The notes beneath the pieces were generated by a model. The model searched no databases. It was not told the origin of the DNA and saw only the letters and a program-made list of their open reading frames with translations. Position numbers and translations under genes: made by a program. From positions 62,001-126,000 of the forward strand of contig NZ_JAHXBF010000030.1 of the NCBI RefSeq assembly GCF_020103695.1: a stretch of 64,000 nt of DNA. The letters run 5' to 3'. This DNA is from Hyalangium versicolor. GTDB lineage: Bacteria; Myxococcota; Myxococcia; Myxococcales; Myxococcaceae. Positions 35,765 through 62,015 of the stretch are shown in pieces (the first letter of the stretch is position 1; the number at the start of each line of letters is the position of its first letter).

Positions 35765-36294
35765 GGCGGGAGGGCCAGATGTTGAGCATGTCGAGCGTGT
35801 GGAGGTTCTCCGCGCTGCTGGTGGGGTGGGTGCTGCTGGGGTGCGGCGGCGCCAACTCCCTGTCGGGCAGCGTGGAGGAGCTCTTCTCGTTGGAGGTGTC
35901 GCGCGTGGAGGTGCTGCGCAACGCGGAGGCGCTCCAGGTGAGCTACTACCGCAACAACGGCCTCGACGTGGACCTGGTGGCGCGCCTCTCGGTGGCCACC
36001 GAGGGCGTCGATCTGAAGCCCGGGGCGAAGGTGAACCTGGGGGGCACCACGCCTTCCGGGGTGGCGCGTGCCACGGTGGTGCACCTGGCGGCCGGCGAGC
36101 CCGCCCGCGTCTTCGCTCCCGTGGACAAGGGCGACTTGCAGCTGGACGAGGGCGGCGGTGTCGACCAGCCCACGCGAGGCAACTTCTCGCTCTCCTTCCA
36201 GCGGGGCGAGGAATACGGCGCCGGCCGCAGCCTGGAGGGGAAGTTCTCGTCCACCGCGGTGGATGCGGGCTTCGGCCCCGAGCCACTGCCGTAG
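35761..36294 (+). CDS. small lipoprotein coupled to the propeller lipoprotein
   Basis: 177 residues; the ATG overlaps the upstream stop. The signal is VWRFSALLVGWVLLGCGG with lipobox LLGC. The mature domain is beta-rich (LEVSRVEVLRNAEALQVSY, DVDLVARLSVATEGVDLKPG, GNFSLSFQRGEEYGAG). It looks like a compact immunoglobulin-like or jelly-roll fold. No family recognised. It is translated with the preceding propeller lipoprotein and probably works with it in the envelope. Confidence 0.72.
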   Translation: MRREGQMLSMSSVWRFSALLVGWVLLGCGGANSLSGSVEELFSLEVSRVEVLRNAEALQVSYYRNNGLDVDLVARLSVATEGVDLKPGAKVNLGGTTPSGVARATVVHLAAGEPARVFAPVDKGDLQLDEGGGVDQPTRGNFSLSFQRGEEYGAGRSLEGKFSSTAVDAGFGPEPLP

Positions 36295-36325
36295 GCGCAC
36301 AGAGCTCAGAGCAGGGAGGCGTCAC

Positions 36326-37534
36326 ATGGGTGAGCGGCCAAATCTGCTGGATCCCGAGGTGCGGGCCAACCCGTATCCGCTCTACGCGCGGCTGCGGCAG
36401 GAAGCCCCCGTGTGCCAGGTGGACCCGCGAGGGATGTGGCTGCTCACCCGTCACGAAGAGGTTACCTTCGCGCTCAAGCACCCCGAGCTCTTCTCATCCT
36501 CGGCCCTGTCCCGAGCGCTGGAGGTGGGCTGGCTGGGGCGAGCCCATCCTCTCGCCTCCGGCATGTCCTTCGCGGATCCTCCCCGGCACGGGCGGCTGCG
36601 CGGGTTGGTGCAGCAGGCGTTCACCCCGGCGGCGCTGGCGGGGCTGGAGCCCTTTGTCCGCTCGGTGGTGGAGCCGCTGGTGACGAACCTTCTCGAGCGG
36701 CGGCAGGTGGACTTCATCCAGGAGTTCTGCATGCCGCTGGCCTCCAGCGTCATCGGCCAGCTGCTGGGGCTGGACACCTTCCTCTTCAAGCGGGTGAAGC
36801 GCTGGGCGGAGGTGGTGGCGGCCATGAGCTCCGTGTCGCCGCAGGACACCGCGCGCCAGGAGCAGGTGCGCACCTCCGTGGAGGAGCTGAGGGCCTACCT
36901 GGAGGAGGTCATCGACGCCCGGCGCCACCAGCCGCGGGAGGACACGGTGAGCGCGCTGGTCCAGGCGCGGGTGGAGGGCGAGGCGCTCACGCAGGAGGAA
37001 TTGCTCAGCTTCCTCTTCCTGCTGCTGGTGGCGGGGATGGAGACGACGGTGGTTCTCCTGGGCAGCGCCATGCGGCTGTTGCGCGAGCGCCCCGAGGTGT
37101 TCTCCTGGCTGCGGGCCGACACCGGGCGGGTGCCTCGCTTCGTCGAGGAGGTGCTGCGCTACGAGCCTCCGGTGCAGGGGCCGCTGAGGGTGGCGACCCA
37201 GGAGGTGGAGCTGGCGGGCGTGCGCATCCCGGCGGGCGCGCTGGTGATGCCCGTGGTGGCCTCGGCGCTGAGGGACGAGCAGCACGTGACGGACGGGGAG
37301 CGGTTCGACCCGGAGCGGGACGGATACAGTCTGTTGGCGTTCGGGCACGGCATTCACTTCTGCCTGGGGGCGCCCCTGGCGCGGCTCGAGGCGCGGGTGG
37401 CGCTCGAGGTGCTGCTGCCCCAATGTGCAGGGCTCGGCGGAGAGTCGGAGCAGGTGGTTTGGAGCAAGGCACTCGCGATGCGAGGACCCGCGGTGCTGCC
37501 CATCGAGCTGTTTCCCGCCAACCAGCCCACGTGA
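36326..37534 (+). CDS. cytochrome P450
   Basis: 402 residues, standard length for a soluble bacterial P450; GGGAGG lies upstream of ATG 36326. I-helix motif LLLVAGMETTVVLL (AGMETT at about 236-241). K-helix ExxR is EEVLRYEPP. The heme-binding loop is FGHGIHFCLGAPLAR with the thiolate Cys at about 346. The N-terminus opens LLDPEVRANPYPLYARLRQE, as usual. The next gene encodes an Old Yellow Enzyme-type reductase. No ferredoxin is nearby, so electrons must come from elsewhere. Substrate cannot be inferred. Confidence 0.93.
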   Translation: MGERPNLLDPEVRANPYPLYARLRQEAPVCQVDPRGMWLLTRHEEVTFALKHPELFSSSALSRALEVGWLGRAHPLASGMSFADPPRHGRLRGLVQQAFTPAALAGLEPFVRSVVEPLVTNLLERRQVDFIQEFCMPLASSVIGQLLGLDTFLFKRVKRWAEVVAAMSSVSPQDTARQEQVRTSVEELRAYLEEVIDARRHQPREDTVSALVQARVEGEALTQEELLSFLFLLLVAGMETTVVLLGSAMRLLRERPEVFSWLRADTGRVPRFVEEVLRYEPPVQGPLRVATQEVELAGVRIPAGALVMPVVASALRDEQHVTDGERFDPERDGYSLLAFGHGIHFCLGAPLARLEARVALEVLLPQCAGLGGESEQVVWSKALAMRGPAVLPIELFPANQPT

Positions 37535-37566
37535 GCCGAGCACCCTTCGGGGGGCCTCTGTGATAG

Positions 37567-38646
<1,080 letters not shown>

Positions 38647-38655
38647 GCGTCTGGC

Positions 38656-39612
38656 TCAACCCGTGGTCCACCAGGCTTCGTCACGCTCCGTGTACCAGTG
38701 CACGGTGCGTGTGAGCCCTTGTTCGAAGGGACAGTGGCCCTGCCAGCTCAGGTCCCTCGCGGCGGCCGATGCATCGGCCTGACTGTGAGGGATCTCTCCG
38801 GCACGTCGTGGCTCGTGCTTCGGGAGGCGATCGCACCGGGTGGCTCGGGCGATGGCCGCGTAGACCTCGCGCACGCTGATCCGTCCGCCCATGGCGATGT
38901 TGTAGACATTGCCCGAGCAGGACTCGCTCGCCCCGAGCGCGCGCAGGCTCGCGGTGACGACATTGTCCACGTAGGTGAAGTCTCGTGTCTGCCCGCCATC
39001 TCCATAGATGATGGCGTCGCCTCCTCGGAGGCATGCCTCGACGAACCGGGGGATGACCGCCGCGTAGGGCGACTGGGGCCGCTGCCGGGGGCCGAACACG
39101 TTGAAGAAGCGCAGCCCGATCGTCTGCAGGCCATAGCTCCGGGTCCAGGCTTGTGCGAGCTGCTCCATGGCGACCTTCGTCGCCGCATAGGGGCTGCATG
39201 CCGCGACCGGATGCTCCTCGCGCATGGGGAGCCTCGGGTTGGCTCCGTAGACGGAGCTGCTGCTCGCGTAGATGACGCGGGACACTCCCGCGCCGCGTGC
39301 AGCCTCCAGCACGTTGAGCATCCCCACCACGTTGACGTCGATGACCGCCCGAGGCTCGGCCAGTGAGCGCGGGACCGAGTTGCGCGCCGCCAGGTGCACG
39401 ATCGCATCGGCGTGGCGAGCGGCATGGGCGCACAGCTCGGGAGTCAGCACCGAGCCGATGAGCACTTCCAGCCGGGGTTCACGGGAGGGGAGATTGGCGG
39501 TCCGGCCCATCGACAAGTCGTCGAGGACGATCACCGAGTGGCCGTCCCCCAGCAGGGCCTCCACGACATGGGAGCCGATGAATCCCGCGCCGCCTGTCAC
39601 CCATACGTGCAT
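38656..39612 (-). CDS. NAD-dependent nucleotide-sugar epimerase/dehydratase (last gene of nine-gene operon)
   Basis: 318 residues from MHVWVTGGAGFIGSHVVEAL, an extended short-chain dehydrogenase. The Gly-rich NAD motif is GGAGFIGS, VIVLDDLSMG binds the ribose, and the catalytic Ser/YxxxK reads YASSSSVYG and SPYAATKVAMEQ. NVFGPRQRP and DGGQTRDFTYVDNVV are typical of UDP-glucose/UDP-GlcNAc 4-epimerases and related dehydratases. It is separated from the deacetylase stop by only one base. It probably supplies the sugar nucleotide for the two glycosyltransferases at the head of the operon. Confidence 0.9.
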   Translation of the reverse strand: MHVWVTGGAGFIGSHVVEALLGDGHSVIVLDDLSMGRTANLPSREPRLEVLIGSVLTPELCAHAARHADAIVHLAARNSVPRSLAEPRAVIDVNVVGMLNVLEAARGAGVSRVIYASSSSVYGANPRLPMREEHPVAACSPYAATKVAMEQLAQAWTRSYGLQTIGLRFFNVFGPRQRPQSPYAAVIPRFVEACLRGGDAIIYGDGGQTRDFTYVDNVVTASLRALGASESCSGNVYNIAMGGRISVREVYAAIARATRCDRLPKHEPRRAGEIPHSQADASAAARDLSWQGHCPFEQGLTRTVHWYTERDEAWWTTG

Positions 39613-39613
39613 G

Positions 39614-40510
39614 TCACAGGACTCCGGGATGGGAAGGCGTGATGAACTCTCGGGGCAGCCGGAAGAGGGGAGCCTCGCGCGTGACGGTTCCTGGGATGCA
39701 GGTGAGCGCGCAGGTGGCTCCCGCTGCCTGGACCTGCTGTTCGGTGGCTGAGTCGAAGTCTCCGTCCGGATAGGCAAAGGGTGCTGGGCGCGCGTCGGAC
39801 AGCCGGGCAATCCAGCTCAGCGAGGCGGAGATCTCGGAGGCGGCTTCCCGTGCTTCCATCTTCGTGAGGTGCCGGTGGCTCGTCCCATGAGCGCCGAGCC
39901 GGTGTCCGACCGAAGCCAATGCTCGGAGCTCTGCCTCCGTCGGGTAGAGCGTCCGCACCAGATCCGCGGGAGGCTCTACATCCAGTGCATGGGCCAGCAA
40001 TCGGAGGAACTCTCTCTGCTCTCCGGGAGGACCGTGGGCAATCCGGCGCTTGAGGTCTCCCGTGATGAGCGCGAGCTTTCCCGCATCGGTCTCGAGCGAA
40101 CCGTGCGTCAGGGTGCCATCCGAAAGCCGGAGCTCGAAGCGTGGGCGCCTCGCGTGGTCGAGCAGCCAGTAGAACAGGTCGACCGGATGGGGCTGTGCCG
40201 CCCGTTCCTGGACGAATGCCGGACACACCAGGAAGGTCGCGAAGACACGCCGGGCCTCGAGCGCTGGCACCACATGGTGGATCCACTCGCAGTAGCCATC
40301 GTCGAAGGTCAGCACCTGCCCCGGTGGGGGCGGTGCTCCCTCCATGACGGCCTCGACCACGTCCTCGAGTGAGCGCACCGGCTCGGAGTCCAGGAGCCGC
40401 TCGAACTCGGCGGGCGTCAGGGACGTTCCGCGCAGCCGGTAGCACGAGGGCCGGCCAAAGGCCGTGGGCTGGTTGGGGAGCACCCGGTGCAGCATGCACA
40501 CGCGAGTCAC
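39614..40510 (-). CDS. polysaccharide deacetylase (NodB-type)
   Basis: 298 residues, no signal peptide, so probably cytosolic. Motif 1 is QVLTFDDGYCEW (catalytic/metal Asp pair), motif 2 is RLGAHGTSHRHL (metal His), and motif 3 reads PFAYPDGDFDSAT. All ligands of the carbohydrate esterase 4 fold are present. Most such enzymes remove N-acetyl groups from hexosamines; without export, a small soluble glycoside or lipid-linked sugar is a likely substrate. The ATG overlaps the stop of the LOG-like gene (ATGA). Confidence 0.88.
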   Translation of the reverse strand: MTRVCMLHRVLPNQPTAFGRPSCYRLRGTSLTPAEFERLLDSEPVRSLEDVVEAVMEGAPPPPGQVLTFDDGYCEWIHHVVPALEARRVFATFLVCPAFVQERAAQPHPVDLFYWLLDHARRPRFELRLSDGTLTHGSLETDAGKLALITGDLKRRIAHGPPGEQREFLRLLAHALDVEPPADLVRTLYPTEAELRALASVGHRLGAHGTSHRHLTKMEAREAASEISASLSWIARLSDARPAPFAYPDGDFDSATEQQVQAAGATCALTCIPGTVTREAPLFRLPREFITPSHPGVL

Positions 40511-41061
40511 CGGGCAGCCCTCGCCAGGAAGCCTGGGTTCCGGGCGGGAGCCGAGGCGAGGATCACCTCGAGTTGTTCCATGGCCTCCGCAGCGGACGAG
40601 GCCCTGGCGATGGGGTGCTCACCTCGGTGATCGAGGAACTGTCCTCCCAGCTGGGTGCTCCAACCACTGCCGACATCGAGCGCCACGACGGGGACCCGGT
40701 GCTGCCAGGCGAGGGCGATCTCGGACAGGGTGCCTGCTCCGCCGCCGATCGCGATCAGGGCGTCCGCCATGGCGACGAGTACGACGTTCCGCGCGAAGTT
40801 CATCCCCGTGGGCACGACGATGTCCACCCACGGGTTCGCGGCGCTGGCGTCCAACATGGGGAGCACGCCGATGGTGTCTCCATCACCGGCCCGCTTCGAG
40901 CTCTTGGCTCCGCGGGCCGCGGCGGCCATGACGCCGTCGAGTCCTCCCGTGACGACGCGGTGACCGTGATCGACGAGCAACTGGCCGACTTCCTCGGCGA
41001 GCTTCAGCGTCTGCTCGCTTTCGGATGCACCCCCCACGACAGCGATTTGCCTGCGACGCAT
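40507..41061 (-). CDS. LOG/TIGR00725-family nucleotide-binding protein
   Basis: 184 residues from MRRRQIAVVGGASESE. It has a Rossmann-like fold with VVTGGLDGVMAAAARGAK and the signature IAIGGGAGTLSEIALAW (a GGxGTxxE variant). Related LOG proteins are nucleoside 5'-monophosphate phosphoribohydrolases that release the base; others of this subgroup bind molybdenum cofactor or have no known activity. In an operon of glycosyltransferases and an epimerase, a role on a nucleotide intermediate is attractive but unproven. Both ends overlap neighbouring genes. Confidence 0.82.
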   Translation of the reverse strand: MRRRQIAVVGGASESEQTLKLAEEVGQLLVDHGHRVVTGGLDGVMAAAARGAKSSKRAGDGDTIGVLPMLDASAANPWVDIVVPTGMNFARNVVLVAMADALIAIGGGAGTLSEIALAWQHRVPVVALDVGSGWSTQLGGQFLDHRGEHPIARASSAAEAMEQLEVILASAPARNPGFLARAAR

Positions 41062-42131
41062 CACCTGTGGCTCCGTGGTCGTGAGGCCTCCTCCAGCAGG
41101 AGGAGGCTGTAGAGTTTGGAGTGCCGCTCGTGATCGGAGAGATCCACCCGCGCGAGCAGCCTCCCATCCGAGAGATCCAGCAGCAGGAGAGAGGTCTCGG
41201 TTCCTTCCGGCTCCCGATCGGCCCAGCGATGGCGAGGCATGCGGCCCCGACGGACCTCCGTCAATCCCACCACCAGCCGCTTCCCATCCGTCCACAGCCC
41301 TCGGCACCAGCCCGCGTGGCCTGTGTCGAAGACACTCCGCCGCACCTCGGCCTTGTCTGTGACACGGCCATCGTTCAGGGGGGTCGCGCGAACGAGGCCA
41401 TCGATGCTCGTGGTCCAGAAGGAACCGGCTGCGATGAAGCCGTCATGGGGATGGCTGCCCTCCAGCCTGAGCAGGGTCTCGAACGTTCGGAGGTCTCGCA
41501 CCGTGCCGTCGTAGAGGCACGTCACCAGCGTCTGGAGCGGGGTGATGCAGACATGGTCGAGGTGGAGGTGATCCGGTACCTTCAGCCGGGCAAAGGGGCT
41601 GTCTCCCCGACGCTGGCCGAGGTCGTGGTAGCCGTCCTCCTCCGGTCCGCTCTGCCAGGGAGTGGGCTCCGCGCCATCCCAACCGGGGGCGAGCACGGCA
41701 TCCCACTGGGGAGGGTCCTCGCCGTTCATCCGCTGGCGGTTGGCCCAGGCGGGCAGCACGGTCTGCGAACCGATGAAGCGCCCTGTCAGCTCGTGAATGT
41801 CCACGGAGCCGAGGCCCGTGTTCGCGATGTACAGGCGGTCCTCCGAGACCGCGACGTGGTGGAGATCATTGAAGCTCGGCTGATGCAGCGCTCCCGTCAC
41901 CGTGGCGCTGACGGCGTCGATACGGACGATCGCGCAGTGAGCGGCGACGTACACGGTGCCGTCATTCGCCCTGCATCCACCCGCGAACCCCTTGCGTGGC
42001 ACTCGGAGATGCGCAGGCGGGAACCAACGGATGAAGGGCTCCGCGCGCTCTCGCTCCAGGTCGACGTGCCAGATGACGCCCTCGCCAGAATCGTCGAAGT
42101 AACCGCCTGTCACGAGAAAGCTCAGGCCCAT
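41061..42131 (-). CDS. beta-propeller-like protein of the nine-gene operon
   Basis: 356 residues from MGLSFLVTGGYFDDSGEGV, with no signal peptide. Repeating blades are seen: NDGTVYVAAHCAIVRIDAV, DLHHVAVSEDRLYIANTGLG, LVTCLYDGTVRDLRTFETL, GSFWTTSIDGLVRATPLND. A His-rich patch (LKVPDHLHLDHVCITP) could bind metal. No known enzyme family is recognised; cytosolic six-bladed propellers act as lyases, lactonases or binding scaffolds. The start overlaps the NAT-like gene by 10 bp and the stop shares one base with the next ATG, so it is an integral member of the operon. Confidence 0.72.
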   Translation of the reverse strand: MGLSFLVTGGYFDDSGEGVIWHVDLERERAEPFIRWFPPAHLRVPRKGFAGGCRANDGTVYVAAHCAIVRIDAVSATVTGALHQPSFNDLHHVAVSEDRLYIANTGLGSVDIHELTGRFIGSQTVLPAWANRQRMNGEDPPQWDAVLAPGWDGAEPTPWQSGPEEDGYHDLGQRRGDSPFARLKVPDHLHLDHVCITPLQTLVTCLYDGTVRDLRTFETLLRLEGSHPHDGFIAAGSFWTTSIDGLVRATPLNDGRVTDKAEVRRSVFDTGHAGWCRGLWTDGKRLVVGLTEVRRGRMPRHRWADREPEGTETSLLLLDLSDGRLLARVDLSDHERHSKLYSLLLLEEASRPRSHR

Positions 42132-44443
42132 GCGGCCCTCCAGGCGGGCAGTGTCTCCGCCACGTGCCGTCCGAAGCGGGAGAGTTGCTCGGGGAGAGCA
42201 GGTGCCTCCAATGCGGAGAGGGCACCGACCAGTTCCTCCACCTGTTCCAGCGAGGCAAGGCAGTTTCGCGCGCTCGCAGCGTCCTCCGGCTCGTGCCACC
42301 ACCAGGCTTCGGGGCGCGACAGCAGGCTCCGTGCCGCCGCCAGTTCGAGGCGCACGCCGCTCTGGCTTCGGGCGAGCAGTCCACGCCGCACGGCGATCTG
42401 TTGCTCGGCGTCGAGAGGTTCCAGGGAGCCGCCTCGCTCCAGGAGTCTCGCGAGCACCACTCCTCGCTCCTGTCCTTCCACGAAGCGGCGCAGCGAGGGG
42501 AGATCCACCTTGCTCTCCGCGAGAGGCGAACTGCCGTCTCCGGGCTGGCGGCCGTGGAGCAGATCGAGATCTGCCTGAACGAGGTGGAGCAGCGGATCTC
42601 GTGCGAAGAGGTGCGCCCAGAGTGTATCGGCGCGACGGGTCATGATGCCGTCCGCTCCGCGCATCACCGGGTAGGGAGCCGCCACGAGTGCATCCAGATC
42701 GAGGAACAAGGCATTGCCTCCGCGAGCGCGGCTGGGTGCCAGTGTCTCGAGGGGACGGTAGGTCAGCGGCCGGGTGACTTGATGCCCATGTGGCACCTGC
42801 GAGAAGGCCGCGCAGAGGGAGCGGAATGCCTCGCGGCCTTTCCAGGGAACAGGGGAGGGAGGCCACCAGGGGAACACCGCGTGAAGGTGCTCTGCCGAGC
42901 CCTGGGCATGGTCGTAGTAGTAGTCCCTCAGCTCTCGCGGAGCTGTGCCTGGGCGCCAGGGCGCGTCAGGAGGGAGTTCCACCATGGCCGAGAGATTTCC
43001 GGCCAGATCATGGAGCTGGACCTGGAGGGTGGCATAGCCGGGGATGGGCGGCTCTCCCGTGAAGGTCCCGAGCGCGACGGAGACCTCCGGATGCTCGCTC
43101 CAGAGCTGCTCAGCCCTGGCGAAGAGATCTTCTCCGTGCGTCGTCCGCAGTCCCTCGGGCATCTCGCAGAGCCGCTGGAACGTCAGATCGTCGTCCAGCA
43201 TCCAGATGACGACAGGGGCTCCTCCGTCGCCCGGGTGAGGCAGGTCGAGGCAGCCCGTCCGGAGGTGCTCATGCAGGAGCGCAGTCTGCAGTGTGCGGGA
43301 CGCCCCGATGGGAACGGGAATCGAGAGCTCAGAGGGGAGCAGGCTCAGGCGTTGGAAGGGGGTGAGGCGATCGAGTGTGTCATGTGAGCTCACTCGAACG
43401 GCTCGAATTCCCATCCGCCGTGCCTGCGCGAGGACGGCGTCCAGAGAACTGCCGTCTGGCTGAGGGCCGCTGTTGTCGAGAAGCAGGAGCCCCATCGAGT
43501 CGCGCGGGCGAGAGCTTCGTTCAAGCAACGTGTCCAGGGAGTGGAGCAGCGCGCTGGCACTCTCGGCCCGGCCGGTGACTGCCAGGGACAGGAGGAAGCG
43601 GAGCCTCTGCTGGAGTGGACGGGCTTCCTGTCGAGCGTTCAGGCCGCCTCTCAGGAGCGCCCCCCTGGCCTTCTCGATCAGGTTCTCGGGCAGCCCGAAG
43701 GTGATGCGCAGCAGCTCCGCCATCGGCTGCCAATCCGTCACGGGGCGAGTGCTCGTGAGCCCGCCTCCGAATCGCCGGTACTGACCGTCTTGGAGCACAG
43801 CCAGGGCCCATTCTGTCATCCGGACGGCGTGGACCCGAGTCAGCCTCTCGCCGCTTCGGTCAAGCTGCGTGCGGAGGAGGCGCTCGAAGGTGGCGTATGC
43901 GCGAGGCGCTGGATCGACGCGGTATACGGTCGCCACGCGTCCTCCAGGGAGTAGGCGGAGCAGCCGGTACCTTTCGGGCTCATCCTGTTCGAAGCGGAAG
44001 GATTGCCCCTGATGGGTGAAGGTCAGCGGGCCTCCCTGGAGGGGAAGAGGTTCCAGGAGTGGCAGGCCACTGCCGACGTCCACCAGGAACCGTCCTTCAG
44101 GCAACTGGACGATGCCGACGCAATGGTCCCCCGGCTCACCCATGCGGGCTGCGGCGAGCCACGACTCAAAGCCCAGTGCTTGCAGCAGTGACACAAAGGG
44201 AGGCGTGAGTTGGAGAGGACCGCCTCCCACGCCTGCGATGTTGCCCTCCACCGAGGCCTCGATAGGCGGGAGTTCGGGAGCGTTCCCTTCGCTGGCCAGG
44301 AGCGAGAGGTTGTGGAACGGCAGCGCGCGGAGGTGAGCCCGTTGCAGGCAGGCCAGCCCATTCAGGTCGACGGAGATGGCCGACAGGTGCAGGCGCGCGA
44401 GGTATGCATCCACCGTCGCGTTATCGAGCCGGGGCAGGTTCAT
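42122..44443 (-). CDS. arylamine N-acetyltransferase-like domain fused to a glycosyltransferase-like domain
   Basis: 773 residues. The first ~290 resemble arylamine N-acetyltransferases: RAHLRALPFHNLSLL, LLQALGFESWLAAARMG, DHCVGIVQL (His 107) and RFLVDVGSG (Asp 122). At the usual RGGxCxE position the sequence is AGVGGGPLQLT, so the nucleophilic Cys is missing. Residues about 345-773 look like a nucleotide-sugar-dependent transferase: RAVRVSSHDTLDRLTPFQRL, VIWMLDDDLTFQRLCEM (DxD-type) and GGNALFLDLDALVAAPYP. The fusion is unusual and I recognise no characterised homologue. It probably binds an aminoacyl or acyl intermediate without acetylating it, and may glycosylate. The start overlaps the M20 gene (ATGA). 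Confidence 0.68.
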   Translation of the reverse strand: MNLPRLDNATVDAYLARLHLSAISVDLNGLACLQRAHLRALPFHNLSLLASEGNAPELPPIEASVEGNIAGVGGGPLQLTPPFVSLLQALGFESWLAAARMGEPGDHCVGIVQLPEGRFLVDVGSGLPLLEPLPLQGGPLTFTHQGQSFRFEQDEPERYRLLRLLPGGRVATVYRVDPAPRAYATFERLLRTQLDRSGERLTRVHAVRMTEWALAVLQDGQYRRFGGGLTSTRPVTDWQPMAELLRITFGLPENLIEKARGALLRGGLNARQEARPLQQRLRFLLSLAVTGRAESASALLHSLDTLLERSSRPRDSMGLLLLDNSGPQPDGSSLDAVLAQARRMGIRAVRVSSHDTLDRLTPFQRLSLLPSELSIPVPIGASRTLQTALLHEHLRTGCLDLPHPGDGGAPVVIWMLDDDLTFQRLCEMPEGLRTTHGEDLFARAEQLWSEHPEVSVALGTFTGEPPIPGYATLQVQLHDLAGNLSAMVELPPDAPWRPGTAPRELRDYYYDHAQGSAEHLHAVFPWWPPSPVPWKGREAFRSLCAAFSQVPHGHQVTRPLTYRPLETLAPSRARGGNALFLDLDALVAAPYPVMRGADGIMTRRADTLWAHLFARDPLLHLVQADLDLLHGRQPGDGSSPLAESKVDLPSLRRFVEGQERGVVLARLLERGGSLEPLDAEQQIAVRRGLLARSQSGVRLELAAARSLLSRPEAWWWHEPEDAASARNCLASLEQVEELVGALSALEAPALPEQLSRFGRHVAETLPAWRAAWA

Positions 44444-45381
44444 GTCTGGCCGCGAGCCACCCGATCCACCCAGTGGAACACCACCTGCAACTCCTCGGCA
44501 TGCAGGGGAAAGGTCCACAGAGGCACGGACTCGTTCGTCCCGTGGATGCGCGAGCGGGAATCATTCACACCCAGCGCGAGGTATCGCGCCCCCACGGGCA
44601 GGTTCCTGTTGAAGGGGCATCCGCCGTCGACGGCCGCCTTGTTCAGCCCACGCACCTCCAGCCGGGTTCCCACGCCCCACCGCCCCGCGAGCAGGCGCAG
44701 CGCCTGGAGCAGCTCATGCATGGACGCGTCCGGTGGCTTGCTCATGCCGGCCTCTGGCCCGAGGGTGCGCGCGATGAGCCGCAGCGTGCCATCCTCGGCA
44801 TCGTGGTAGCCGGTCTCCTCCAACCAGAGTTCCGGCTGGAGTCCGGCAAGCCGCTCCCTCAGCACCAGGGACGACGCCACGGAGCCCGTCTCTTCCTCGC
44901 CCTGGATGAACCAGGTAAGGGCGGGAGTGCGCTCGAAGGATGCCAGCGCCACGAGGCGCGCGGCCAGAGGGCCCTTGTTGTCACCCACGCCATGCCCGGA
45001 CCAGCGTCCTTGCTCCTCCGTCAGCACATGCGGCGGACTGGTCCAGCCGAGTTCCCCGTGGCGCAGGAGCGTCACATCGTAGTGGTTGTAGAGCACGACA
45101 TGTCCCGCCAGTCCTCGCGAGGACCGATGGGCTTCGATGACGGCTGGCGCGTGAGGAAGCGGTTGATGGACCTTGCAGGTAAAGCCAATCGCTTCGAGGC
45201 GTTCGCACAGCCATTGGATGCAAGCGGGGTGGGCGGGGCTCCCGGGACTCGTGTCGAAAGCGAGCAGTTCCGCCAGGGTCTCTCGCGTCATCGGCAGGGG
45301 CGATGCCGTGTGGCGCGAACGCATGGGCGCTGTCACGAGCGGGTGGTAGCGCTGCGCGAGTGCCCTCTCTCCCGAGTCCAT
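44440..45381 (-). CDS. M20-family metallopeptidase/deacylase-like protein
   Basis: 313 residues from ATG 45381, chosen for a GGGGGG-rich ribosome-binding stretch 8 nt after the previous stop; a shorter start at 45291 (MTRETLAELLAFDTSPG) is also possible. M20 ligands are recognisable: the His-x-Asp region VVLYNHYDVT, the bridging Asp in SGHGVGDNKGPLA, the Glu pair FIQGEEETGS, and a downstream His (SRIHGTNESVP). It is somewhat shorter than typical 380-450-residue M20 enzymes. Such enzymes cleave amide bonds in dipeptides, acylamino acids or natural-product intermediates. In this operon it may deacylate or trim a pathway intermediate. Confidence 0.78.
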   Translation of the reverse strand: MDSGERALAQRYHPLVTAPMRSRHTASPLPMTRETLAELLAFDTSPGSPAHPACIQWLCERLEAIGFTCKVHQPLPHAPAVIEAHRSSRGLAGHVVLYNHYDVTLLRHGELGWTSPPHVLTEEQGRWSGHGVGDNKGPLAARLVALASFERTPALTWFIQGEEETGSVASSLVLRERLAGLQPELWLEETGYHDAEDGTLRLIARTLGPEAGMSKPPDASMHELLQALRLLAGRWGVGTRLEVRGLNKAAVDGGCPFNRNLPVGARYLALGVNDSRSRIHGTNESVPLWTFPLHAEELQVVFHWVDRVARGQT

Positions 45382-45389
45382 GGCAAGCT

Positions 45390-45854
45390 TTACCCCCCGG
45401 GCAGCCACGTCATGGGCAACCCCCGGTTCTTCCAATCACTATACCGATCATACCACCCACGAGCCTCTTCCATGCTCATGGAGCGGCTGCCCGGAGCATG
45501 TCCTTTCGGACGCTGGATGAACTGGCGCTCCCATTGCTCCAATGAAGGGAGCAGGAGGAGCACCTCCTCACCCGTGTGGAGAGGGAACAGATCCTCCTCT
45601 CGAAGGATGGCGGAGATGACCAGCAGCGGGGGAAGGTCATCATTGGCTGGGTCCAACTCCACCCGCCGGATGGCGTTCATGAGCAGACTTCGCGCCTGCA
45701 TCATTCCCTTGCGCTGCCGTGAGGGATCCATCAAGGGCTGGAGCAGGTGCGAGAGTTCCAACACTCGAGGGGGATCGGGCTGCTCCAGCCGTTTCGCCGC
45801 CCAGGTGCTCTTGCCCGCGGCAGGGGGGCCGATCAACCAGAGGAGGCGCTTCAA
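45390..45854 (-). CDS. small P-loop kinase-like protein
   Basis: 154 residues with the Walker A motif LIGPPAAGKSTWAAKRL at about 8-24, a LID-like basic region and no DNA-binding part. It resembles the zeta-toxin/chloramphenicol-phosphotransferase type of small-molecule kinases in size, with WERQFIQRPKGH as a possible substrate/ATP loop. It overlaps the upstream GT2 gene (ATGA). In this operon it probably phosphorylates a sugar or small molecule. Confidence 0.75.
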   Translation of the reverse strand: MKRLLWLIGPPAAGKSTWAAKRLEQPDPPRVLELSHLLQPLMDPSRQRKGMMQARSLLMNAIRRVELDPANDDLPPLLVISAILREEDLFPLHTGEEVLLLLPSLEQWERQFIQRPKGHAPGSRSMSMEEARGWYDRYSDWKNRGLPMTWLPGG

Positions 45855-46612
45855 GGGTCCACTCCGAAGAGCTGACGTGCGCGGGTCTTGAAGGCATCCA
45901 CTCGCGCGGGCCCCATGGCCGTCGCGTGTTTGGCGAGGAAGGCGCGCAGTCCCTCCAGGTTGGTGGGCGAACCGGCCGTGGACAGTCGCAGTCCCGGATG
46001 GACGTGGAAGTGCACCCGAGGCTGCACGTTGCGCCCGTACTTCAAGTCCGCGAGGCAGGCCAGCCGGTAGCCGAGATCCATGTCATGGAAGGAGGGCAGT
46101 GCCGGATCGAAGCCGCCCACGCGCATGAAAGTGATTCGGGAGATGAACAGGTTGGAGCCGCGGATGCCTGGATTGCGGACCAGGAAGTCCTCGGGCTGAA
46201 GGCGCTCGGGTGGGATCTTCTCGGGGATGATCTCCTGCTGGCCTGCGTGCGGACCCTCCTTCACTTTCAGGAAGGCGGTCAGCACCAGCTCCAGGCCGCC
46301 CGTGAGCGCCAACTGCTCTGCCTCGGCCAGATAGTCCGGGTGCCACGTGTCATCGTCGTCGAGAAAGGCGAGGTACTGCCCGCGTGCTACGGATGCGCCT
46401 CGATTCCGGGCACGCGCGGCACCATGAGGCGCCTCGTTCCGCACCCGGGAGATTCCTTCTCTCAGAGAGAGTTCCAGAGGCTCGTCTCCATCGTCGATGA
46501 CGAGCACCTCGTCCGGGTGGCGCGTCTGCGCCTCCACGCTGGCCAGAGCTCGCTGAAGCAGCTCCGGGCGGTGTCGCGTCGGGATGACGACCGAGAGCTC
46601 CGAGCCCTTCAT
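45851..46612 (-). CDS. family 2 glycosyltransferase
   Basis: 253 residues, GT-A fold. It opens LSVVIPTRHRPELLQRALAS, then DEVLVIDDGD, then the DxD metal site in QYLAFLDDDDTWHPDYLA, and an acceptor/catalytic segment FHDMDLGYRLACLADL. There is no membrane anchor. The donor is unknown. The gene overlaps both neighbours by ATGA, so it is co-translated with the GT-B gene upstream and the kinase downstream. Together they suggest two successive glycosyl transfers on a soluble acceptor. Confidence 0.9.
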   Translation of the reverse strand: MKGSELSVVIPTRHRPELLQRALASVEAQTRHPDEVLVIDDGDEPLELSLREGISRVRNEAPHGAARARNRGASVARGQYLAFLDDDDTWHPDYLAEAEQLALTGGLELVLTAFLKVKEGPHAGQQEIIPEKIPPERLQPEDFLVRNPGIRGSNLFISRITFMRVGGFDPALPSFHDMDLGYRLACLADLKYGRNVQPRVHFHVHPGLRLSTAGSPTNLEGLRAFLAKHATAMGPARVDAFKTRARQLFGVDP

Positions 46613-47781
46613 GCCCGTCGCTCCTTCCTGGAAGGAAGGTCGGCCATCACGCGCCGGATCTCCGCGGCAGCCTCGGCGCCACCGGGCGGACCGAGCAGCT
46701 CCAGGAAGGACCGCTGTGCCTCCACGTGCCGCTTCAGCTCCGAGGGCTCACGGCGAAGCTGAGCGATCACCCGTTCACTGACGAGGCTCCTGGCCGAAGG
46801 GTCCGCGTCGAAGCGGGAGACGAGTTCCAACACTCGTGCTGTCCCCTCTGACTCGGGGGCCTGCGAGGAGATGGGCACGTCGGGATAGAGCTCCGTGAGG
46901 TTCAGGCCTCGCGGCGCCAGGCCATGCTCCTGGTACACCTCCAGTTGGAAGACCTGGGTCAGGTTCTGTGGCGGCAGGAAGCTGGTGGGCACGCCCTGGG
47001 AGAAGCCCTCGAAGGGAGCATTCAGGCCCGGAGCCGTGAGGAACTGGCTCGCGCCCGCCAGCAGGTCCAGGTACTGCTCCTGGGGAAAGGTCTCGACGCG
47101 GAGCCCTCCCTCCGCCCCGTGCTCGTGGATGCTCGAGACAGCCTGTGCGCCCGCGGCGATGATGACGGCCGCTGGAGCCCAGCCTGCCTTGGGGAGCAGC
47201 TCCCGGATCAGCCGGGTCATCGAGGAGGGATAGCAGGTGTTCCTTCCCGGGAGGATGTCGGGAGACTGGGCGCCGCCATAGTTCACCAGGAGCCGAGGGG
47301 AGCGCACCGCTCGCTCGCGCAGGGACGGGGGCGCGATGAGGGGCCCCACCACCCGAGGGCGAACCATCTCCGGCTCGTACCTCCTCACGGTCTCGGAGAC
47401 GCCGGGGAAGTTCTCGATGATGTAGCTCCGCGCATGGCGCATGGCCGGGGTGAGCCGCCGCTTCATCCAGAAGAGGATGTCGATGAAGACCACGGGCAGG
47501 CCCAGCTCGAGCGCCAGGGGGATGTTCGTGTTGTTGGAGATGGCGAGGTAGAGGTCGGCGCTCGCCAGCACCGGAGCATGCCGGGCCACCGACTCTGGTG
47601 CCTTCACATCACAGGCGAGCACCTGGGAGAAGGTGGCCGGATCGCACTGCTCACGCGTGGGACCCGTGGCCAGGACTGTGAACCTGGCCTCCGGCAGTTC
47701 GCGCGCCACGGCCCGCAGCGCCGAGATGGACCCATAGCAGAACGGATTGGGATCGCAGACGATGTGCGGCCGTGCGTCCAT
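46609..47781 (-). CDS. GT-B type nucleotide-sugar glycosyltransferase, first gene of the nine-gene run
   Basis: 390 residues with the two-Rossmann layout of GT-B enzymes. The N-lobe has DPNPFCYGSISALRAVARELP and ISNNTNIPLALELGLPVVFI. The C-lobe has LLVNYGGAQSPDILPG and the donor-binding region ASQFLTAPGLNAPFEGFSQG followed by PTSFLPPQNLTQ. It recalls soluble glycosyltransferases of antibiotic pathways more than cell-wall enzymes, but the subfamily is unclear. Only 15 bp separate it from the DUF3332 gene upstream and no ribosome-binding site is evident, so it is probably read from a message that starts further upstream. Confidence 0.82.
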   Translation of the reverse strand: MDARPHIVCDPNPFCYGSISALRAVARELPEARFTVLATGPTREQCDPATFSQVLACDVKAPESVARHAPVLASADLYLAISNNTNIPLALELGLPVVFIDILFWMKRRLTPAMRHARSYIIENFPGVSETVRRYEPEMVRPRVVGPLIAPPSLRERAVRSPRLLVNYGGAQSPDILPGRNTCYPSSMTRLIRELLPKAGWAPAAVIIAAGAQAVSSIHEHGAEGGLRVETFPQEQYLDLLAGASQFLTAPGLNAPFEGFSQGVPTSFLPPQNLTQVFQLEVYQEHGLAPRGLNLTELYPDVPISSQAPESEGTARVLELVSRFDADPSARSLVSERVIAQLRREPSELKRHVEAQRSFLELLGPPGGAEAAAEIRRVMADLPSRKERRA

Positions 47782-47796: not shown

Positions 47797-48444
47797 CTAC
47801 TGCTCAGCGGTGCAGACCTGGGCCAGCCCCTGCGAGAGCGGCGAGACCTGGTTGTGGGCGAACTGCGCGAGTCCCTCGGCGCCCTCGCTGAGGAACAGCT
47901 GCCGCGCCTGGGCCACCGCCTCGGCCGAGTGCAGGGCCATGGTGTTGCCTGCGGCGTCCGTCACCGCCACCGCGCCGTCCGCCTGCTCGCGCGCCTGGAT
48001 GAGCATCGCGCCGGCGTCGTCACGCACCGCCATGCCGTCATCGAGCGGCTCGAAGTAGCGCACCACTGGCGGCTTGCCCGCGCGCTCCAGCTCCATCTTC
48101 ATGACGCCGGACTCGGGGTCGCGCGACAGGCGCAGCGTGTCCTCGGAGTTCAGCCGCACCACGCGCGTGTTGCCGTCCGGCGAATCCGTGCTGGAGACGG
48201 GGTTCTGGCCGGTCCAGAACTCGATGCTGTTGATGACGAGCGCGTCCACCAGCGAGCCGATCTCGTACACGGGGACGATGACCAGCACGAGGAACACCAA
48301 CCACTGGATGAACTTGTTGGGCGAGACGTTCTTGTTGAAGTCCCAGATTGCCCGGGTGAGGGTGAACTTGCCGAAACACCCGGAGGCATGCACCGAGAAA
48401 AAGGCCAGGCACAGCACCACCAGCAGACGGGAAGCACGCTTCAT
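47797..48444 (-). CDS. DUF3332 lipoprotein with membrane segment
   Basis: 215 residues. Signal/lipobox LVVLCLAFFSVHASGCFGKF, immediately followed by the DUF3332 hallmark FTLTRAIWDFNKNVSPNKF and a membrane span WLVFLVLVIVPVYEIGSLVD. The C-terminal part is polar and helical (LHSAEAVAQARQLFLSEGAE). Members of this family are envelope proteins of unknown function. It lies 30 bp downstream of the FHA-sigma54 activator gene and 15 bp upstream of the glycosyltransferase operon; whether it belongs to that pathway is unclear. Confidence 0.82.
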   Translation of the reverse strand: MKRASRLLVVLCLAFFSVHASGCFGKFTLTRAIWDFNKNVSPNKFIQWLVFLVLVIVPVYEIGSLVDALVINSIEFWTGQNPVSSTDSPDGNTRVVRLNSEDTLRLSRDPESGVMKMELERAGKPPVVRYFEPLDDGMAVRDDAGAMLIQAREQADGAVAVTDAAGNTMALHSAEAVAQARQLFLSEGAEGLAQFAHNQVSPLSQGLAQVCTAEQ

Positions 48445-48474
48445 ATGGGGGATACCCCTCCAAGGGACAGCGGG

Positions 48475-49839
<1,365 letters not shown>

Positions 49840-61280: not shown

Positions 61281-62015
61281 CTATGTTCCCGCTGGAGGCT
61301 TGCGTTGGAGCAGGCCGGCGCGGTCGAGCAACTCGCGTACACGCTCGGCCAGTGCGAGGTGCTCGGGGTTGGAGGCGGTGAAGCGCTCGGGAGTGAGGAT
61401 GACGAGGGTGCCCAGGTCCTCCACGGGCTCGATGCGCACGGGGGCGGGCAGAGGGGGGACCTGGCCTTGGCGGTGCGAGAGGTATGTCACCCAGCCCACC
61501 CACACAGCCGGCTTCTTCTGCTCAAGGAGCTGCCGGTGGGTACGGGAGGTGGCCACTCCCCAATCGGGGTCCCAGGCCGTGGCGATGGCTCGCAGCGCTG
61601 CGACCTGGAAGGGAGTCGTCAGGACCCGCTCCGACCCAGGGCCCTCATCAGGAGGTTCCAGGACACACCGGTTGTTGATCTGCTCCCAATATCCTCCGCA
61701 ACCGATGTTCAGCCAGACGTCGTTGCCCCCCTGGCTGCCATTCCACAGCGTGACACTGAACCCCAAGTCTTCCATGGGCTGGCGCCGGTCGTCGCGCATG
61801 AGGTTGCGCTGGAGGTACTGCCGGATGCTGGAGAGTTCGAGCTCCAGCGGGCGTTGCAGCGTCAGTTTGAGGGACTTCGCGCCCTTGAACCAGCTGGCGA
61901 AGAGTGGATCCACTGGCGCGAGTTCCTGGACCATGGTTGCCAGACGTTGCGCGCACGCTTCCGCGTCCTCCTTCCGCGCGCCCCAATAAGCGCCGATGTA
62001 GTACGTCTCGCTCAT
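61281..62015 (-). CDS. Imm52-family immunity protein, copy A
   Basis: 244 residues, no signal peptide. The opening MSETYYIGAYWGARKEDAEA and LELSSIRQYLQRNLMRDDR, DVWLNIGCGGYWEQ and VDVxx-like C-terminal blocks are those of the immunity 52 family. It starts 9 bp downstream of the Tox-REase-5 gene, so it should protect the producer against that toxin. Its C-terminal ~70 residues are almost identical to those of the second Imm52 gene at the right edge, while the middle differs (HRQLLEQKKPAVW against YALQDVMVPKGDK). Confidence 0.85.
   Translation of the reverse strand: MSETYYIGAYWGARKEDAEACAQRLATMVQELAPVDPLFASWFKGAKSLKLTLQRPLELELSSIRQYLQRNLMRDDRRQPMEDLGFSVTLWNGSQGGNDVWLNIGCGGYWEQINNRCVLEPPDEGPGSERVLTTPFQVAALRAIATAWDPDWGVATSRTHRQLLEQKKPAVWVGWVTYLSHRQGQVPPLPAPVRIEPVEDLGTLVILTPERFTASNPEHLALAERVRELLDRAGLLQRKPPAGT
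61295..61500. repeat. duplicated Imm52 3' segment, copy A (partner at 63632-63837)
   Basis: About 206 bp starting GAGGCTTGCG are nearly identical to 63632-63837, with only scattered substitutions. Both encode the C-terminus of an Imm52 protein. The similarity fades sharply upstream, which points to recent duplication or gene conversion. Confidence 0.8.

Follow-up and report, generated by a model that had tools for sequence, protein, structure and literature searches.

A nine-gene operon of Hyalangium versicolor with an acetyltransferase-fold fusion protein, a candidate pathway for a glycosylated small molecule

The DNA analysed here, hereafter the window, spans 64,000 nucleotides of Hyalangium versicolor (positions 62,001 to 126,000 of contig NZ_JAHXBF010000030.1, from a genome of 13.56 Mb in 101 contigs), and its positions 38656-47781 are filled by nine minus-strand genes. 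Families were assigned through Pfam and NCBIfam profile scans of the window proteins, and in the order of transcription the genes are the following:

46609..47781, minus strand: GT-B glycosyltransferase of the cytosylglucuronic acid (CGA) synthase superfamily, 390 aa (TIGR04467, E 1.9e-10, 40.4 bits)
45851..46612, minus strand: GT2-family glycosyltransferase, 253 aa (PF00535, 82.9 bits)
45390..45854, minus strand: small P-loop kinase-like protein (AAA_33), 154 aa, TTG start (PF13671, 25.6 bits, cut-off 27)
44440..45381, minus strand: M20-family metallo-amidohydrolase that lacks the lid domain and also an N-terminal domain seen in many relatives (PF01546, 46.6 bits)
42122..44443, minus strand: fusion of an arylamine N-acetyltransferase (NAT)-fold domain with a C-terminal domain read as a GT-A-type glycosyltransferase (PF00797, alignments)
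41061..42131, minus strand: beta-propeller-like protein, weakly DUF4915/TIGR03032 (DUF4915 E 2e-3, TIGR03032 E 5e-5)
40507..41064, minus strand: SLOG/LOG-fold nucleotide-binding protein (TIGR00725, 124.9 bits, cut-off 106.9; LOG/SLOG PF18306)
39614..40510, minus strand: NodB-family polysaccharide deacetylase, hydrophobic N-terminus absent (PF01522, 64.1 bits)
38656..39612, minus strand: SDR nucleotide-sugar 4-epimerase, TviC/WbpP/WbgU-like (PF01370 and best solved matches)

An earlier note on this DNA had described nine consecutive, mostly overlapping genes, and this layout is confirmed: with the chosen starts, which include TTG for the kinase and GTG for LOG and NodB, 6 of the 8 junctions overlap, five of them by 4 nt (GT-B/GT2, GT2/kinase, M20/NAT, propeller/LOG and LOG/NodB) and one by 10 nt (NAT/propeller), and the remaining two leave 8 nt (kinase/M20) and 1 nt (NodB/epimerase) between the genes. 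A promoter and terminator scan yielded no signal above chance. Purifying selection acts on all nine genes, with ratios of nonsynonymous to synonymous substitution (dN/dS) of 0.10-0.22 against Hyalangium gracile. The family calls of the note hold for GT2, NAT, M20, LOG, NodB and the epimerase at the level of Pfam or NCBIfam profiles, and are weaker for the kinase, the propeller and GT-B. Its statement that polymerase, flippase and export genes are missing is likewise sustained, the profile scans having found no flippase, polymerase, transporter, ABC exporter or lipid-carrier enzyme among the nine proteins. Solubility was judged by a Kyte-Doolittle scan over 19 residues, not by a dedicated topology predictor; seven of the nine proteins stay below the usual threshold of 1.6, and the stretches above it in GT-B (1.94, residues 87-105) and LOG (1.81, residues 94-112) we read as buried Rossmann-type cores, in the case of LOG because the stretch runs into the conserved GGGAGT motif. 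NodB lacks a hydrophobic N-terminus, in keeping with the absence of a signal peptide claimed for it.

Concerning the sugar-nucleotide side of the operon, the GT-B protein has no Pfam match and its sole family match is TIGR04467 (CGA_synthase), which at 40.4 bits falls below the curated cut-off of 300, while all 39 aligned relatives match this model (best E 3.1e-21); a profile search of the PDB gave weak GT1-type matches, the best at E 0.009. The resemblance to the CGA synthases BlsD and MilC of the blasticidin S and mildiomycin clusters thus lies in the shared GT-B superfamily and in the TIGR04467 matches of the relatives, whereas the window protein is far under the cut-off and its neighbouring genes differ; the radical SAM (BlsE-like) enzyme of such clusters, for example, was not found among the nine proteins. 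CGA is formed by BlsD/MilC from UDP-glucuronic acid and free cytosine, and the known members of the family take UDP-glucuronic acid as donor (PMC3715490). A donor of the UDP-uronic-acid type is likely here as well, since the GT-B protein belongs to this superfamily and the cluster of two relatives includes a UDP-sugar dehydrogenase: a UDP-sugar 6-dehydrogenase adjoins the epimerase in H. gracile (L038 13533-14855) and in Plesiocystis (L057 14345-15664), and enzymes of this type occur somewhere in the genome in 8 of the 8 near genomes. The best solved matches of the epimerase include WbgU and WbpP, which we take to be UDP-HexNAc(A) 4-epimerases. GT2 accompanies the cluster in the near relatives and also in L063, a Myxococcales metagenome-assembled genome (MAG), and resembles MftF at E 2e-21. 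The kinase finds no match in the PDB (best E 0.51), and an AAA_33 kinase-like domain is fused to a LOG domain in L063 (5306-6436).

The protein at the centre of the operon combines a NAT domain (about residues 1-275; PF00797 at 53.5 bits against a cut-off of 22.8), whose profile matches solved NATs over residues 12-274, with a C-terminal part of about 500 aa that, in the window protein, matches no Pfam family. Its best homologue outside its own genome is that of H. gracile, with 71% identity. The fold is that of the arylamine N-acetyltransferases and amide synthases (PF00797; GdmF and others in the PDB), from which the window protein differs in its second domain and in the loss of the catalytic cysteine: the position is Pro76, and with His107 and Asp122 kept the Cys-His-Asp triad is incomplete. 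Of the 46 aligned members, 36 retain the Cys, 40 the His and all 46 the Asp; the 10 losses of Cys all fall within the 15 closest members (P0001-P0015), and the aligned His is lost in 6. Because the catalytic cysteine is gone, the NAT half is probably no acetyltransferase in H. versicolor, a detail on which the earlier note needs correction. It is nevertheless constrained (dN/dS 0.30, versus 0.18 for the C-terminal half, between the window and H. gracile), and is therefore likely retained for binding or structure. The C-terminal half carries the motif W-M-x-D-D-D (W414-M415 and D417-D418-D419), unchanged in all 46 members, and RGGNALFLDLDAL follows further along. The same domain shares a 1725-aa protein of L044 (349-5526) with GT2 domains and a methyltransferase. 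From the motif, the place beside GT2 domains and one weak TAGT match we infer that this half is a GT-A-type glycosyltransferase.

M20 peptidases usually bear a lid/dimerisation domain between their catalytic halves and hold the charged metal-site residues in the catalytic domain. The window M20 protein (46.6 bits for PF01546, cut-off 24.6) resembles the M20 dipeptidases and deacylases (carnosinase, DapE, ArgE) in its catalytic half and in the putative metal-site residues, H100, D102, D134, E162-E164, E189 and H280 being invariant in an alignment of 16, but it lacks the lid: only 90 residues separate E189 from H280, and PDB matches, among which the closest solved kin is carnosine dipeptidase, stop near residue 161 except for one weak piece at 252-284. 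A further difference from these enzymes is an extra N-terminal domain of about 110-150 aa in some relatives, namely H. gracile (L038 7442-7894), L055, L056, L057, L059, L060 and L062. The domain gave no Pfam match above cut-off in five distant copies and that of H. gracile, and is 37-38% identical between H. gracile and L056/L057; only its last residues are left in the window, it is lost in the nearest kin except H. gracile, and L045 and L064 are without it.

The propeller protein shows weak similarity to the DUF4915/TIGR03032 propeller proteins: 8 of 15 members match DUF4915 weakly (best E 3.7e-5), with 17.4 bits for the window and 21.5 for L063, both under the cut-off of 35. It has an invariant His, Asp and Trp-Cys-Arg-Gly and a weak match to an NHL propeller in the PDB (E 0.016), and differs from DUF4915/TIGR03032 proteins in that its type is found in this cluster alone among 195 genomes. 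LOG proteins are marked by a motif of the PGGxGTxxE type. The window LOG passes the TIGR00725 cut-off and shares GG-x-GTLSE and the Arg with the LOG phosphoribohydrolases and molybdenum-cofactor carriers (TIGR00725, PF18306): the motif reads GGGAGTLSE, with Gly for Pro, R92 and E115 are present, and R92, G107, G108 and G111-E115 are invariant in 11 of 11 members, G109 being variable. Its nearest solved structures, 6y01 (which we take to be a molybdenum-cofactor-carrier protein), 1rcu and the molybdenum cofactor carrier 2iz5, rank ahead of the cytokinin LOGs, so that the LOG-type assignment is upheld as a family call while its best PDB kin lie on the carrier side rather than with the phosphoribohydrolases. 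NodB deacetylases hold their metal by TFDDG and HxxxH motifs, and in the window protein (64.1 bits for PF01522, cut-off 23.1) T68-G72 and H208/H212 are invariant in an alignment of 15. In trees of the propeller and of NodB the window and H. gracile form a pair (100/98 and 99/97), with little support for the deeper forks.

Co-occurrence was followed in 147 genomes of the class and in a phylum set of 195 genomes, searching whole genomes with one gene per search. The fusion profile matches 31 of the 147 genomes at E<=1e-3: both halves are present in 8, with G052 carrying them in separate frames, and the NAT domain alone in 21, while G137 has the C-terminal part in another protein and G121 a short C-terminal match. 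The propeller profile matches 8 genomes of the class, identical to the 8 fusion genomes, and 8 of 195 in the phylum set, none of them new. GT-B is matched in 15 of 147, strongly in 7 (at least 564 bits, the fusion genomes except G052) and weakly in 8 (E 1e-5 to 8e-4); at E<=1e-8 the phylum set gives 7 of 195, again none new and always in the cluster. M20 proteins occur in 142 of 147 genomes at E<=1e-5, and the 8 cluster genomes score 317-458 bits, the next best reaching 96. Pairwise identities of six cluster proteins covary across loci (Spearman 0.49-0.87 over 15 protein pairs). Homologues scattered singly, which would have spoken against an operon, were not what was found: in these sets propeller, GT-B and the distinctive M20 occur only in fusion genomes and beside the fusion. 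The exception is G072, whose M20 is found where one contig ends and whose fusion is found where a different one begins, apparently a contig break. Hence, chance gene order is ruled out by this co-occurrence, and the nine-gene set is a genuine cluster and not a chance assembly. It is also sporadic, being absent from 5 of the 7 genomes of the genus Hyalangium.

The arrangement in near relatives was obtained by tblastn of 16 window genes on 12 stretches. H. gracile (G081) has all nine genes in the order of the window, and a rearranged form, in which M20-NAT-propeller-(LOG)-NodB-epimerase faces kinase-GT2-GT-B, is found in Archangium violaceum (G046), Corallococcus praedator (G064), a Myxococcaceae MAG (G068), Corallococcus terminator (G072) and Cystobacter fuscus (G075). 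The UDP-sugar dehydrogenase of H. gracile is the only further gene seen inside the clusters of near relatives, whose flanks were listed but not all scanned. Flanking genes vary between lineages: the Corallococcus-type loci L039-L041 have on one side genes recognised by eye as secG and pgk, and two of the three have a polyketide synthase (PKS) gene some genes away on the other side, the third reaching a contig end. GC content at third codon positions (GC3) is 0.804 in the cluster versus 0.851 in 32 other window genes (Mann-Whitney p 0.022), and 0.72-0.73 in the cluster of L039 and L040 versus 0.82-0.99 in most flanking genes. In another genome of the genus (G082) the flanks are colinear, the nine genes are gone together with a flanking old yellow enzyme (OYE) gene, and DUF3332 is followed directly by a piece of a P450 (residues 3-86; L105 9259-9510), while the 16 kb around DUF3332 in G077-G080 yielded none of the nine genes and no P450. 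This pattern fits a gain by transfer followed by one later deletion.

Two neighbourhoods of the window touch the operon. At 36068-38646, on the opposite strand, a P450 and an OYE-type FMN oxidoreductase end 9 nt from the epimerase; they were rejected as operon members on account of the strand and because they stand beside the cluster in H. gracile alone, with no match in near loci L039-L043. Directly upstream, 15 nt before GT-B, lie a DUF3332 gene and an FHA/sigma-54 activator (47797-49839). These were also set aside, as five more genomes of the genus have them but not the cluster, and because they are conserved across the genus without it the operon may have been inserted under a pre-existing transcript.

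A scan of genome contigs with the fusion alignment gave 15 loci, for which a gene map was made with trimmed domains; none of the 15 is named as actinobacterial, and no other search of actinobacteria was made. M20, fusion, propeller, LOG and NodB occur together in Nannocystis (L055), a Sandaracinaceae MAG (L056), Ca. Parabeggiatoa (L059) and an unclassified MAG (L062), and Plesiocystis (L057) has the same core genes with LOG not in view. The clusters of Nannocystis, the Sandaracinaceae MAG, Ca. Parabeggiatoa and Plesiocystis lack GT-B and GT2. In a second Parabeggiatoa locus (L058) M20 is not in view and no PhyH is seen, and contig ends truncate L054, L060 (Thiomargarita), L061 and L064 (Sphaerotilus). 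L063 carries M20, propeller, GT-B, GT2, the kinase-LOG fusion and NodB, its NAT/transferase fusion being matched only C-terminally (residues 246-718). In 8 of the 10 distant M20 loci (L045, L055, L056, L057, L059, L060, L062 and L064), M20 has one or two PhyH dioxygenase genes next to it or between it and the fusion; L054 starts inside M20, and L063, with about 330 nt before M20, is without PhyH. Paired PhyH genes belong to different subtypes (L056 7173-8667, L057 7157-8697, L062 7939-8793 and 14797-15540), and no PhyH match was found in near loci L038-L043 or in the window. There seem, then, to be two forms of the cluster, one with PhyH and one with GT-B/GT2. P-loop kinase-like genes are present in the PhyH type too (L045, L057 and L062, those of L057 and L062 being related). 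Small genes that look toxin-antitoxin-like by eye lie between the cluster genes of Ca. Parabeggiatoa (L058 8840-9589, L059 12623-13239).

A dedicated pathway to a soluble glycoside fits this body of data best, because the set joins transferases, sugar-nucleotide enzymes, a deacetylase and an amidase in an all-or-none block that is patchy and under selection. Gene content, co-occurrence, selection and the presence or loss of motifs are direct observations, from which every reaction, the product and its solubility are inferred. We lean, with some reserve, towards a self-contained, horizontally spread cluster that would make a small soluble glycoside, its sugar probably of the uronic-acid type and N-deacetylated; that a soluble small molecule is more likely than a capsule, as the earlier note had supposed, thus stays the favoured reading from gene content. 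In such a pathway the epimerase would supply UDP-hexuronate or UDP-HexNAc-uronate together with a UDP-sugar 6-dehydrogenase encoded outside the cluster, the CGA-synthase-like GT-B would transfer the uronate sugar to a small acceptor, and extension of the glycoside would fall to GT2 and the fusion's GT-A-like half. NodB would strip N-acetyl groups and M20 would cleave an amide, removing a protecting group or an amino acid. The LOG/kinase pair could act on a phosphorylated or nucleotide-derived precursor, possibly releasing the acceptor, and the propeller could serve as lyase, isomerase or in a finishing step. The NAT half would be a non-acylating scaffold in the window, whereas the distant form, which keeps Cys-His-Asp, may act with PhyH dioxygenases.

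Several observations weigh against the glycoside pathway. The C-terminal half of the fusion fits no glycosyltransferase profile well, with 1 of 46 members matching PF20691 (TAGT) at E 0.0036 and an hhalign probability of 1.9% to a GT2 profile. Since 10 of the 11 distant genomes have no GT-B, a CGA-like step cannot be the core reaction for the family at large; two of these 11, those of L060 (Thiomargarita) and L064 (Sphaerotilus), are without the propeller, and there the clusters run off or lie near contig ends. An ortholog of LOG is missing from 4 of the 8 near genomes with the cluster, so that LOG is dispensable or replaced. Two proteins, GT-B and LOG, have hydrophobic stretches above 1.6, the GC3 difference in the window is modest, and no transporter or resistance gene was recognised.

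Four other readings were considered. In blasticidin and mildiomycin pathways CMP hydrolases free the base from a nucleotide, and by analogy LOG could free a base to which GT-B adds a uronic acid, the remaining enzymes decorating the N-glycoside. Such a nucleoside pathway is suggested by the match of 39 of 39 GT-B relatives to the CGA synthase superfamily, the intact LOG motif, the kinase-LOG fusion of L063, the UDP-sugar dehydrogenase and epimerase of relatives, and the precedent of CGA itself, made by BlsD/MilC from UDP-glucuronic acid and free cytosine (PMC3715490). We consider it improbable all the same, since GT-B reaches 40 of the 300 bits needed for CGA_synthase, LOG is missing in 4 of 8 near genomes, is closer to molybdenum-cofactor-carrier proteins and persists in distant clusters without GT-B, and neither a radical SAM enzyme nor an aminotransferase is among the nine.

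A module for a surface or secreted glycan (capsule, O-antigen or spore coat) with its export genes elsewhere would account for three glycosyltransferase-like parts, a NodB deacetylase and a TviC/WbpP-like epimerase. This is distinctly unlikely: a known O-antigen or capsule locus with a flippase, the alternative that the earlier note had named as fatal to its proposal, was set aside for want of a flippase or polymerase among the nine, where lipid-carrier enzymes are absent as well. NodB has no hydrophobic N-terminus, the distribution is patchy (8 of 147 genomes), and LOG, M20, NAT and a small kinase are, to our knowledge, unusual in capsule loci. Mycothiol and bacillithiol are made by a GT-B plus deacetylase logic, and an analogous glycosylated cofactor or protective thiol/osmolyte might be imagined from the combination of glycosyltransferase, deacetylase and acyltransferase-like parts and from the resemblance of GT2 to MftF (E 2e-21), but a sporadic cluster, lacking in 5 of the 7 genomes of the genus and with no client enzyme recognised as travelling with it beyond Hyalangium, makes this very improbable. 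An operon that dismantles or scavenges a glycoconjugate with M20, NodB, a propeller lyase and LOG, several hydrolase families being present, can hardly be credited given three transferase-like parts, a nucleotide-sugar epimerase and the absence of a transporter and of a glycoside hydrolase among the nine.

Returning to the soluble glycoside, searches of an open-access paper library found no published description of this gene set, and we place it among biosynthetic clusters that make glycosylated small molecules, outside any named one, CGA synthase being the nearest named enzyme, at superfamily level only. A broader and tentative extension, which we hold as possible rather than likely, is a natural-product class common to predatory myxobacteria and giant sulfur bacteria: a soluble uronic-acid glycoside built around the NAT/glycosyltransferase fusion, its myxobacterial form perhaps an N-glycoside of a nucleobase or heteroaromatic, in which the acyltransferase half would decay in the GT-B/GT2 branch and keep its triad with PhyH in the other. 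None of the usual marks of nonribosomal peptide synthetases, PKS or ribosomally synthesized and post-translationally modified peptides occurs in the nine genes, and standard natural-product searches may miss the cluster. It recurs in several myxobacterial lineages, with its core also in uncultured giant sulfur bacteria; the named carriers are mostly culturable (Hyalangium gracile, Corallococcus, Archangium, Cystobacter and Nannocystis), and the cluster offers enzymes without an assigned activity in the NAT/glycosyltransferase fusion, the propeller and the lid-less M20.

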